From Lysinibacillus irui (GTDB taxonomy: Bacteria; Bacillota; Bacilli; Bacillales_A; Planococcaceae), in NCBI RefSeq assembly GCF_028877475.1, contig NZ_CP113527.1:4147501-4211500 (forward strand): a stretch of DNA of 64,000 bases. The letters are read 5' to 3'. A program made the position numbers and the translations under genes. The notes beneath the pieces are model-generated. The model worked only from the letters and a program-made list of their open reading frames with translations. It was not told the DNA's origin and ran no database searches. Below, piece after piece: positions 6,665 to 32,711 of the stretch. The number at the start of each line of letters is the position of its first letter. The first letter of the stretch is position 1.

Positions 6665-6808
6665 TTCTTATCAAGAGAGACGGAGGGATTGGCCCGATGA
6701 AGTCTCAGCAACCAGCTCAACAGTATGGTGCTAATTCCAATTGGCCTAATTCCAAAGCCTTGAAGATGAGAAGATGAACTACCGTTGTTTATTCAGGAGT
6801 CCTCTTCT
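6665..6808 (+). promoter_or_regulatory. SAM-I (S-box) riboswitch
   Basis: The aptamer shows the S-box order of conserved blocks: TTATCAAGAG, GGAGGGATTGGCCCGATGAA and CAGCAACC, then P3/P4 hairpins. P1 pairs TTCTTATC (6665-6672) with GATGAGAA (6765-6772). An antiterminator can form between AGAAGA (6769-6774) and TCTTCT (6803-6808), overlapping both the P1 3' strand and the terminator stem. High SAM should therefore stabilise P1, free the terminator and switch the downstream gene off. The 3' block AGTCTCAGCAACC departs slightly from the commonest form but keeps GCAACC. Confidence 0.9.
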
Positions 6809-30857: not shown

Positions 30858-32306
30858 TTAAAATATCTTTTTATTTTCTATTACAAACTGGACATCCGCT
30901 ACATTTTTGATGAACTTTTTATCATGCGTGACAAAGATGATTGTTCCTTCATAGGCAGCCATAAATTGCTCAAGCGCTTCTAATGCATGAATATCTAAGA
31001 AATTAGTCGGCTCATCCAATAGTAAAATATTATAGTTTCCCAAAAATAGCTGACAGAGCTGGAGGCGTATGGCTTCTCCACCACTTAAAAACTTTACGAC
31101 TTTTTGTATATCGGTTCCTATAAACTGCATGGAATGAAGCACACTTCGTAATAGGCCTTCATCATATTCAGAGCGATTTTCCAAAAATTGCAGAACGGTC
31201 TCCTCGCTTTTAAATTGATAGCTCATCTGTAGGAAATGACCTATCTTAGCCTTAGGGGAGATGGTTAATCCTTCACCATTATTAGCGATATGTCGTAGTA
31301 AGGTACTTTTACCACAACCGTTACTACCTGTAAGCGCAATTTTTTTACCCAATGGTATTTGAAAGCTTACATTATCCAATAGTACCTTTTCCTGAACGTG
31401 TAAACAGAGCTGCTCGGCCATAATCGGAAATTTATTGTGTAGTTTTAAAGGCTTCGGTTGCCGGAAAACTATTTTTCTCTCTCCCTGTACAGCCTCTACT
31501 TTCCGGAGCTTTTCTATTCGATGCTCGATGGCTTTAGCTGCACGCTGCACAGATTTTTGACTTGTGCCTTTGGACTTTGTCATAAACATACGATTCGGTT
31601 TTGCGTTAGCCTCTCTTTTCGACATACTACCTGCTTGAGCAATTTTTTCAGCTTTTTTCAGCTTTTCATCAACAGCTTTTTCAAGTCTGCTTTTTTCTTT
31701 CAAGTATTGGTCATATGCTTGACTTTGCTGATCTCGTTCTAATTGCTTTTGGTAAGCATAATCACTGTAATTGCCCGCATAAATTGTGATCTTACCATTT
31801 TCAACTTCCCATATGGTTGTAACCAGATCATCTAGTACAGCACGATCGTGACTTATTAGTATAAGTGCCCCATAATAATAGCGCAATTCATCAAGTAGAA
31901 ACGAAATACCCTTTTGATCCAAATGTGTTGTTGGCTCATCAATGAGCAAAGCTTCCTCATAAATAGAAAATAATTGTGCTAGCTTTAATCGTGTTTGCTC
32001 TCCACCACTAAGCTGGTCAGATTGCTTGGGTACGGCAAGTTTGCCCAATAAGGCTGGATCTGGTTTAGTGGATGTCGGTGCTTCCACTTGTTCAAAATAC
32101 CCGAAATGAACATGGCTTTTTATCCTCCCGTTTGTTAGTCGAATCTTCCCAGCAAGTAATTTCATTAATGTACTTTTACCAGCACCATTTTTACCAACGA
32201 TTCCTATTCGGTCAAATTGATGCACAGCTAATTTTTCTATATTCAATATCTCTTGATCTAAATAAGTCACGACTACATTCTCTAATTCAAAGCAAACCTT
32301 TTCCAT
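30858..32306 (-). CDS. ABC-F ribosome-protection protein (antibiotic-resistance class)
   Basis: This soluble protein of 482 residues has two ABC ATPase domains and no membrane segment. Domain 1 has Walker A GKNGAGKST (about 38-46), signature LSGGEQTRL and Walker B ALLIDEP. Domain 2 has GSNGCGKST, LSGGEAIRL and ILLLDEP. The charged linker between them (about 195-275, YQKQLERDQQSQAYDQYLKE ... SMSKREANAKPNRMF) is of the Vga/Lsa/VmlR/Msr type that reaches the peptidyl-transferase centre and displaces bound drugs. The drug range (lincosamides, pleuromutilins, streptogramins or macrolides) cannot be fixed. Expression is surely attenuated by the long leader upstream. The RBS is GGGAGG, 7 bases before the ATG. 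Confidence 0.92.
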   Translation of the reverse strand: MEKVCFELENVVVTYLDQEILNIEKLAVHQFDRIGIVGKNGAGKSTLMKLLAGKIRLTNGRIKSHVHFGYFEQVEAPTSTKPDPALLGKLAVPKQSDQLSGGEQTRLKLAQLFSIYEEALLIDEPTTHLDQKGISFLLDELRYYYGALILISHDRAVLDDLVTTIWEVENGKITIYAGNYSDYAYQKQLERDQQSQAYDQYLKEKSRLEKAVDEKLKKAEKIAQAGSMSKREANAKPNRMFMTKSKGTSQKSVQRAAKAIEHRIEKLRKVEAVQGERKIVFRQPKPLKLHNKFPIMAEQLCLHVQEKVLLDNVSFQIPLGKKIALTGSNGCGKSTLLRHIANNGEGLTISPKAKIGHFLQMSYQFKSEETVLQFLENRSEYDEGLLRSVLHSMQFIGTDIQKVVKFLSGGEAIRLQLCQLFLGNYNILLLDEPTNFLDIHALEALEQFMAAYEGTIIFVTHDKKFIKNVADVQFVIENKKIF

Positions 32307-32332
32307 GTTGCTACCTCCCGAAATTTAATTTT

Positions 32333-32382
32333 CGTATCGATAGCTATGGTATCGATACGAGCTTCTATTAAAAGCTCGTATC
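32333..32382 (-). promoter_or_regulatory. Two mutually exclusive hairpins before the ABC-F RBS
   Basis: Hairpin 1 pairs 32354-32364 with 32372-32382 (11 bp, GATACGAGCTT arms). Hairpin 2 pairs 32333-32342 with 32350-32359 (10 bp, CGTATCGATA arms). They share 32354-32359, so only one can form. The stop codon of the second leader ORF lies inside hairpin 1, so a ribosome there should favour hairpin 2. A small stem at 32319-32334 touches the ABC-F RBS. Confidence 0.75.
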
Positions 32383-32404
32383 AAAAGAATAATAGACTGT
32401 ACAT
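32381..32404 (-). CDS. Second leader peptide, MYSLLFF
   Basis: A 7-codon ORF with a strong RBS (GGGAGGG, 7 bases before the ATG). Its stop codon overlaps the 5' arm of hairpin 1. Position and RBS suggest a translated regulatory uORF for the ABC-F gene. Confidence 0.6.
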   Translation of the reverse strand: MYSLLFF

Positions 32405-32426
32405 TACATTTCCCTCCCTATATTCA

Positions 32427-32459
32427 ATAAAAAAACACAGACTTGGTTTTGTCTGTGTT
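32427..32459 (-). terminator. Leader terminator A
   Basis: Stem AACACAGAC / GTCTGTGTT (32434-32442 with 32451-32459), followed on the minus strand by a run of T. It lies inside the ABC-F leader and can stop transcription before the gene. Confidence 0.85.
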
Positions 32460-32497
32460 GAAAAGTAAAAGAGATATAGTGTAGATTTATTCTCACT

Positions 32498-32523
32498 AAA
32501 AAAGAAGCCCTTGCTTCCCTTTT
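32498..32523 (-). terminator. Leader terminator B
   Basis: A stem of about 11 bp with two G-U pairs (5' AAAAGGGAAGC, 3' GCTTCTTTTTT on the minus strand) around a 4-base loop, with a T-run in its 3' arm. It is about 40 bases upstream of terminator A. Confidence 0.65.
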
Positions 32524-32554
32524 CTTATACATATGAAGATGATTAAAAAAGGAC

Positions 32555-32636
32555 AGACTATCCCGTTTACTCTGATTTCACAAACAGAGTTTTTGACCCT
32601 ATTTAGTTATTGGTTCAACATTGGGAAACGTAGTCT
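32555..32636 (-). promoter_or_regulatory. Long-range pairing of the leader ORF with the attenuator
   Basis: On the minus strand AGACTA and CGTTT within the MRLRF codons (32626-32636) can pair with AAACG and TAGTCT (32555-32568, 3-base bulge), closing over a smaller ACTCTG/CAGAGT hairpin at 32569-32590. A ribosome stalled on Arg-Leu-Arg would break this helix, a plausible drug-sensing switch upstream of terminators B and A. Confidence 0.55.
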
Positions 32637-32651
32637 CATAGCATGTGTCAT
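32607..32651 (-). CDS. ErmD-leader-like stalling peptide, MTHAMRLRFPMLNQ
   Basis: A 14-codon ORF with AAGGAGG 11 bases before its ATG, about 26 bases after the predicted transcription start. The peptide is nearly the ErmD leader (MTHSMRLRF...) and keeps Arg-Leu-Arg, the +X+ motif at which macrolides arrest the ribosome. It heads the leader of the ABC-F gene rather than an rRNA methylase gene. Confidence 0.88.
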   Translation of the reverse strand: MTHAMRLRFPMLNQ

Positions 32652-32683
32652 TTTTTAATAATCCTCCTTGAATTGTTACGATT

Positions 32684-32711
32684 ATTATAAATTCTATCTA
32701 CAATATGTCAA
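32684..32711 (-). promoter_or_regulatory. Sigma-A promoter of the ABC-F leader
   Basis: A perfect TTGACA (32706-32711) and a perfect TATAAT (32684-32689) are separated by 16 bp on the minus strand. This strong constitutive promoter is consistent with control by attenuation downstream. Confidence 0.85.

Follow-up and report, generated by a model that had tools for sequence, protein, structure and literature searches.

A probable double-lock leader before an Msr-type ABC-F gene in Lysinibacillus irui

The leader described here precedes an ABC-F gene in a 64,000-nucleotide window of Lysinibacillus irui (NCBI RefSeq assembly GCF_028877475.1, contig NZ_CP113527.1, positions 4,147,501 to 4,211,500), and its closest described counterparts are leader-peptide attenuators. 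The erm(K) leader has two adjacent terminators (Chancey 2015 citing Kwak 1991, PMC4335068), and the ErmD and ErmK leader peptides are alike (PMC4335068). Leader peptides with a +x+ (R/K-x-R/K) motif are also known before ABC-F genes, as MTASMRLK before msr(A) and MTASMKLRFELLNNN before msr(C) (Chancey 2015 Table 3, PMC4335068). Streptococcal msrD is under two leader peptides, both of them transcription attenuators, an arrangement that its authors call dual regulation and a double lock; one of the two, MsrDL (MYLIFM), acts through an intrinsic terminator (Fostier 2023, PMC10314930). In vmlR (Takada 2022, PMC9226507) and cplR (Obana 2023, PMC10201436), transcription and translation attenuation both proceed from one upstream open reading frame (uORF). 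In the ErmC-type scheme, a stall on the leader ORF refolds the RNA and frees the Shine-Dalgarno sequence of the gene (PMC10219788). Finally, ErmB has two leader peptides, ErmBL and ErmBL2, and translational attenuation of its methylase gene (PMC8274638).

The window quite probably holds a double-lock leader before an Msr-type ABC-F gene, in which lock 1 would control transcription in the manner of ErmD/ErmK and lock 2 would control translation in an ErmC-like manner. The order on the minus strand is promoter, ORF1, structured region, ORF2, second structured region and ABC-F gene, each ORF and the promoter lying where the original prediction had placed it. Sequence comparison shows that lock 1 is homologous to the ErmD leader; it also shows the helices of a domain D1 over ORF1, a terminator T3, the mutually exclusive pairings of lock 2, and the conservation of the ORF2 peptide and of its place directly before msr. 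The arrangement is far from chance and recurs in many related bacteria. The general scheme of the original prediction, an ErmD-like transcription attenuator followed by a second leader acting on translation, fits this evidence; its first terminator and its layer-2 pairings had to be redrawn.

Relatives came from two sources, 61 genomes searched at the protein level and named genomes scanned for the best 80 of 200 relatives, which together yielded 94 loci: L001-L014 at 69% identity or above and L031-L110 at 62% or above. Seven are duplicate contigs, as judged by their lengths and ranges (L031-L035, L071, L074), leaving 87 distinct loci. More distant loci of the protein search (at most 47% identity) are excluded from the counts, and five that were inspected (L015-L019) lack the LLF[F/Y] leader described below. 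ORF1 was sought up to 1.9 kb upstream, and for L001-L014 the upstream reach was only 1.5 kb. ORF2 is present at 92/94 loci and 85/87 distinct loci, the misses being L100 and L110; ORF1 with its structured block is present at 75/94 loci and, by subtraction, 70/87 distinct loci, and all 75 have a short ORF with a Shine-Dalgarno sequence at the block. The pattern that would have spoken against the original prediction, leader ORFs lost in relatives that keep the terminators, was thus not seen, and layer 2 is the more constant of the two layers. Both layers with no gene between them, as in the window, occur at about 50/87 distinct loci, a count reached by taking the cargo loci and L100 (no ORF2) from the 70 layer-1 loci. 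There is no room for a gene between the layers in these 50, because ORF1 lies at -310 to -602. Of the two loci that lack ORF2, L100 carries a terminator-like hairpin immediately upstream of msr, and at L110 the start of msr and the stop of an RlmA-like gene overlap.

A conserved second leader directly before msr

The second layer consists of the following parts.

32412..32419, minus strand: Shine-Dalgarno sequence AGGGAGGG, upstream of ORF2
32381..32404, minus strand: ORF2, leader peptide MYSLLFF
32381-32372, minus strand: switch arm A
32364-32351, minus strand: switch arm B
32349-32330, minus strand: switch arm C
32323-32303, minus strand: switch arm D
32303..32381, minus strand: whole switch; predicted OFF state A:B with C:D, hiding the ABC-F Shine-Dalgarno sequence (32319-32314) and AUG (32306-32304), and predicted ON state B:C
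30858..32306, minus strand: ABC-F gene, Msr-family ribosomal protection ATPase of 482 amino acids, by NCBIfam model match

The ORF2 peptide ends in LLFF, LLFY or LLFH at 89 of the 92 loci, the remaining three reading LFFF, PLFF and LFFH, and its stop codon is UGA or UAA, never UAG. Across the loci the leucines of LLF are encoded by six and five different codons respectively, and the phenylalanine by both that it has; because these codons vary synonymously, the peptide, and not the RNA alone, is conserved. The ORF2 stop lies 74 nt from the ABC-F start in the window, and arm A starts at most one base from the ORF2 stop codon in 77 of 85 loci.

The pairings of the switch were counted on 77 distinct sequences. 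Helix A:B is paired in 99.7% of 693 cells, with 12 doubly changed and 0/500 shuffles as high. For B:C, 100% of 693 cells are paired and three doubly changed (1/500 shuffles), with two of five measures not above shuffles (144/500). Outer C:D is paired in 100% of 462 cells; an inner C:D helix, in which CCAU pairs with the AUGG of the start in the window, is visible in folds and lies outside the pair counts. RNAalifold, run on the alignment, yields A:B and outer C:D unprompted. The layer folds with a z of -6.25 in the window (0/200 shuffles as good), and its best fold without masking averages -31.8 kcal/mol over 85 loci. The two exclusive hairpins of the original prediction are therefore present as A:B and B:C, sharing five bases (32359-32355) where six had been given, and the third pairing, C:D, which hides the ABC-F start, had been missed.

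Beyond the aligned loci, a covariance model of the element matched 19/299 class genomes, 18 times directly before msr and once before an msr remnant; at L171 the msr downstream of the element matches in two pieces. A DNA pattern of the element matched 39/261 family genomes, with zero matches for the reversed control. Of 30 pattern loci fetched, the element precedes an Msr start in 29 (with a short open frame in L125 and L135), and L133 has it before mef and again before a broken msr. Copies before mef occur at 7 of the 12 Mef loci viewed (L038, L044, L050, L063, L094, L109 and the G210 locus, L141). In these seven, GUAUCGAU behind the Shine-Dalgarno sequence pairs, by eye, with AUCGAUAC; this pairing is a separate form of C:D, with the same logic in other letters. 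That layer 2 arose by chance is rejected on ORF2 conservation, the covariance-model matches and the folding z. Rfam gave no match to the element at gathering score, its sole hit being a chance-level one on the opposite strand (E 0.49). Separately, L174 has a second ABC-F-like stretch directly upstream of msr and its ORF2 element.

A first leader of ErmD type

The first layer and its promoter comprise the following.

32684..32711, minus strand: sigma-A type promoter TTGACA-16-TATAAT, 12/12 consensus matches
32663..32669, minus strand: Shine-Dalgarno sequence AAGGAGG, upstream of ORF1
32607..32651, minus strand: ORF1, ErmDL/ErmKL-like leader peptide MTHAMRLRFPMLNQ with Arg-Leu-Arg
32535..32666, minus strand: domain D1, about 130 nt and 47 pairs, folding over ORF1 and containing the first terminator of the original prediction
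32666-32646 with 32555-32535, minus strand: D1 helix P0, on the Shine-Dalgarno sequence and AUG of ORF1 (D1 also has helices P1 and P2)
32618-32612 with 32599-32593, minus strand: D1 helix H0
32590-32585 with 32574-32569, minus strand: D1 helix H1
32498..32523, minus strand: T2, terminator-like hairpin and U-run, variable in sequence among relatives
32434..32459, minus strand: T3, conserved intrinsic terminator AACACAGAC..GTCTGTGTT followed by a T-run
32451..32589, minus strand: AT3, proposed antiterminator, pairing 32589-32560 (H1 loop, 3′ arm and GGGAU) with 32485-32451 (ending in the 5′ arm of T3)

When plasmids were searched by blastn, the window leader aligned with the ErmD leader of Bacillus licheniformis plasmid pBL141-1 at 86.3% DNA identity over 145 nt. 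The alignment holds ORF1, the strands and stems of D1, T2 and T3 in the same order; the window differs in a shorter D1-T3 stretch and in its T2. Layer 1 thus reads as DNA homologous to the ErmD leader. The original prediction had likened the two peptides, and the comparison is stronger than it knew because the leader DNA, not the peptide alone, is homologous. The comparison was drawn from plasmids, an ORF1 DNA pattern having matched 7/261 family and 2/299 class whole genomes.

The D1 model was made by folding the pBL141-1 ErmD leader, and its pairs were then counted on 51 distinct sequences. These are 59 segments (57 layer-1 loci plus L154 and L155) minus eight near-duplicates; the other layer-1 loci are identical, outside the search expression, or set aside for their Shine-Dalgarno pattern (L091, L093, L094). 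Standard pairs fill 93.8% of 2,373 cells, against 41-48% with slid partners, and 12 pairs and 45 cells are doubly changed. Shuffles did as well in 0/500 cases on four of five measures, the fifth, further pair types, giving 77/500. The P0 duplex averages -19.9 kcal/mol over the 59 segments (range -28.7 to -8.8), against -8.0 +/- 2.6 for shuffled partners. Within P1, ORF1 codon 7 has a third base that varies together with its pairing partner (A-U 24, U-A 9, G-C 6, unpaired 11; n=51). Counted separately, H0 is paired in 92.2% of 399 cells, with eight doubly changed and 0/500 shuffles as high. In the window D1 folds with a z of -2.84 (0/200 shuffles as good).

D1 is better read as hiding the Shine-Dalgarno sequence and start of ORF1. 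This bears on the two terminators of the original prediction, the first of which does not stand: its U-run (32550-32545) appears mainly as the 3′ strand of the helix with the ORF1 Shine-Dalgarno sequence and start. A simple terminator at 32589-32545 was rejected, the local hairpin being weak and variable and the U-run pairing with the ORF1 start region with covariation. A direct AAAGG:CCUUU anti-terminator for the same block was likewise dropped, being not above shuffles. The candidates that do stand are T2 and T3. T2 reaches -10.4 kcal/mol (z -2.89, 4/200 shuffles as good), and relatives have a different hairpin at its position. T3 reaches -12.3 kcal/mol (z -4.68, 0/200 shuffles); hairpins of its type were identified at 46 of the 60 loci scanned, and the ErmD leader has one too. 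The region has three terminator-like sites, one of them on the minus strand, against 0.2 +/- 0.5 in shuffles.

Complementarity between the H1/GGGAU strand and T3 points to the proposed antiterminator. Both stretches were recognised at 46 loci (44 of the 60 scanned, plus L154 and L155), where the AT3 duplex averages -21.0 kcal/mol against -10.6 +/- 3.1 for shuffled partners; in the window it reaches -17.6 kcal/mol. Pairing fills 86.1% of 821 cells, against 39-54% with slid partners.

The promoter matches the consensus perfectly. Its support lies in that match and in its position, because the number of promoter-like sites in the region (3) equals the shuffle level (3.1 +/- 1.8). The ABC-F protein scores 756.3 bits with the NCBIfam model NF000168 (ABCF_Msr_all), above the cut-off of 680, and falls short of the narrower Msr(A) model (384 against 1100 needed). 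Plasmid relatives with 72-81% identity to it carry the label Msr(G), and among solved chains it matches 5zlu_EE best, an entry that bears the name 'Macrolide efflux protein'. The gene thus looks like an Msr-family, Msr(G)-like ABC-F, with macrolide/streptogramin B protection as its predicted role. The window belongs to a 4.45-Mb contig within a 4.70-Mb assembly, which groups with Lysinibacillus species in the tree. Elsewhere in the genome, outside the window, there is a second ABC-F-like gene, 34% identical to that of the window (G000:C1:4126278-4127621). Within the window, a SAM riboswitch lies at 6665-6772 on the plus strand (Rfam RF00162, 83.1 bits). The window's order of D-Ala ligase, YitT, msr and carboxypeptidase recurs in L176 (CP031730.1 213891-222298), a plasmid record labelled Stenotrophomonas rhizophila and perhaps a mislabelled or mixed Lysinibacillus.

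Cargo, mechanism and alternatives

In some relatives the two layers are separated by a gene. Cargo here means a gene that sits between the two layers or immediately ahead of layer 2; the window has no gene between its layers. Full-length Mef is the cargo in 10/87 distinct loci (L011, L038, L044, L050, L052-L054, L063, L094, L109), with a broken copy in L039 and a remnant in L067; a weak opposite-strand Mef match in L068 was dropped. Erm is found in L078, Mph in L096-L099, and an RlmA/Erm(32)-like methylase in L104, L105, L107 and L110, the cargo of L097 and L105 being assigned by spacing and near-identity, without translation. One example of each kind was compared with NCBIfam: Erm passes its broad model, and the examples of Mph, RlmA-like methylase and Mef reach good scores that stay under the cut-offs for named members. 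On a tree whose bootstrap is not settled and in which four hand labels are wrong, cargo types are scattered, as expected of repeated gain and loss. In the same tree, the msr locus of L049, from a contig titled Arthrobacter, falls among Sporosarcina and Paenibacillus rows, and the label is perhaps wrong or the assembly mixed.

The proposed mechanism would run as follows. Without drug, ORF1 would be read quickly and the RNA would close as D1, hiding the ORF1 start; closed D1 would hold H1 and GGGAU, so that T3 could form and terminate transcription. A ribosome stalled by a macrolide at Arg-Leu-Arg, at about codon 8 and inside D1, would mask the ORF1 codons engaged in P1, P2 and H0. The H1/GGGAU strand, once released, could then capture the 5′ arm of T3 as AT3, and RNA polymerase would read on. 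In the read-through RNA, A:B and C:D would form, C:D burying the ABC-F Shine-Dalgarno sequence and AUG. If a ribosome halted on the final ORF2 codons or at the ORF2 stop, it would cover arm A, so that B pairs with C and the ABC-F start opens. Drug stalling at either ORF, the folding order, the formation of AT3 in the cell and the two-step control are what we infer, the drug-dependent part from homology, geometry and conservation. For layer 2 itself we lean towards a bolder view, held with less assurance than the double lock: that it is an undescribed portable drug-sensing element of Bacillales, with a new arrest peptide M-x-x-L-L-F-[F/Y]-stop and a four-arm switch over msr and some mef starts. 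Behind an ErmD/K-type attenuator it would complete a two-step AND gate around a cargo slot for mef, erm, mph, an rlmA-like methylase or nothing.

Several results weigh against the double-lock reading. No T3-type hairpin was recognised in 14 of the 60 loci scanned. AT3 has no covariation, permuted partners pairing equally (273/500 at least as high), and partners swapped between loci bind equally (-20.6); both results arise because the two sides hardly vary. In equilibrium folding with a ribosome at codon 8, T3 keeps a mean of 0.75 and falls below 0.5 in 11/44 loci; in the window it stays at 1.0 under this mask, and no thermodynamic ON state of layer 1 was found there by such masked folding. A ribosome at the ORF1 stop lowers T3 more (mean 0.67), so this test cannot separate a stalled from a terminating ribosome. 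At one of the H0 pairs, roughly half of the sequences carry an A-G mismatch, and the number of pair types in this helix is not above shuffles (5 against 6.0). In layer 2, C:D before msr is near-invariant, with no doubly changed pair. When arm A is masked, B:C lies a mean of 1.8 kcal/mol above the best fold (84 loci); it comes within 0.5 kcal/mol in 26/84 loci, and the best fold beats it by more than that in 58/84. Opening of layer 2 would therefore need B:C to form kinetically first, during transcription. Lastly, layer 1 was not seen within the searched reach in 17/87 distinct loci, and seven of 70 distinct loci have lost the +x+ motif of ORF1 with the surrounding block kept (L002, L012, L067, L082, L083, L084, L108).

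These last losses, the greater constancy of layer 2, the broken mef and mef remnant between the layers of L039 and L067, and the shorter D1-T3 stretch and different T2 of the window would all suit a leader with a single working lock. Layer 2 would then do the sensing, and layer 1 would be the eroding remnant of an ErmD/Mef-type operon leader after loss of the middle gene. Yet the window retains Arg-Leu-Arg, D1 with its favourable z, AT3 complementarity and a strong T3, and about 50 distinct loci retain both layers with no gene between. We consider a single lock improbable.

Slightly less probable again is that layer 2 acts on transcription or RNA stability, for which streptococcal MsrDL, working by an intrinsic terminator, would be the model. 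A terminator of that type behind ORF2 was sought and rejected, none being found in the 77 aligned loci or in the window. In the aligned loci none of the helices A:B, B:C and C:D is followed by a U-run, and the window has no terminator on the minus strand between ORF2 and msr. Outer C:D, moreover, takes in the end of the Shine-Dalgarno sequence and pairs in 77/77 sequences, and the seven mef copies do likewise in other letters. Because no terminator follows, layer 2 looks like an ErmC-type translational attenuator. That ORF2 senses no drug, its translation merely opening the ABC-F start or handing ribosomes on, would accommodate a last residue that varies (F, Y, H) and an ORF2 stall that is conjectural, but is very improbable given a stop 74 nt upstream of the ABC-F start, an LLF kept across synonymous changes that coupling alone would not need, and an arm A beginning at the stop codon, where a held ribosome could cover it.

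Comparison with described attenuators

Under the double-lock reading, layer 1 shares homologous DNA and the order of its parts with the ErmD and ErmK attenuators, which we take to be of one type; it differs in that the downstream gene is Msr and that a second lock follows. D1 may already be drawn for ermK in Kwak 1991. ErmC-type attenuators are four-arm structures. Layer 2 resembles them in having exclusive stems 1:2, 2:3 and 3:4 with the Shine-Dalgarno sequence in 3:4, and differs in its LLF[F/Y]-stop peptide, in placing arm A at the stop codon and in serving Msr or Mef.

The closest layout is that of the mefA/msrD operon, found also in phi1207.3, with an RLR leader first (MefAL, MTASMRLR) and a short hydrophobic leader (MsrDL) second, directly before the Msr gene. 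There, in the passages cited, mef lies between the leaders and both locks are transcriptional, whereas the second lock of the window is a start-hiding switch and no gene intervenes. VmlR also has its uORF inside an anti-antiterminator hairpin, as ORF1 lies inside D1; in the cited parts of their papers, VmlR and CplR use one tripeptide uORF for both levels, whereas the window has one leader ORF per level. ErmB likewise has two leader peptides before one macrolide resistance gene, and differs, as far as the cited text goes, in its translational attenuation and its methylase gene. The claim of the original prediction that no case with both layers had been described was thus too strong, given the two leader peptides of msrD and the combined attenuation of vmlR and cplR, and a +x+ leader before an ABC-F gene is not new in view of msr(A) and msr(C). 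In a library of open-licence papers, with most subscription papers outside its scope, we found neither an account of two levels in series with a leader ORF for each nor any mention of the LLF[F/Y] element, and a text search there for six leader peptides gave zero occurrences.

What the locus would add is an ErmK-like transcription stop and an ErmC-like hidden start placed one after the other ahead of a single gene, with a separate sensor peptide for each. Such a layout lets the stacking of locks be tested for less leak, a sharper threshold or the sensing of different drugs, and LLF[F/Y]-stop joins MsrDL as a candidate new arrest sequence. It also suggests how macrolide-resistance operons may be assembled, from a shared leader, a middle gene that can be exchanged and an msr under a lock of its own. 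The individual parts belong to kinds already known; what looks new is the way they are combined, together with the second leader element.

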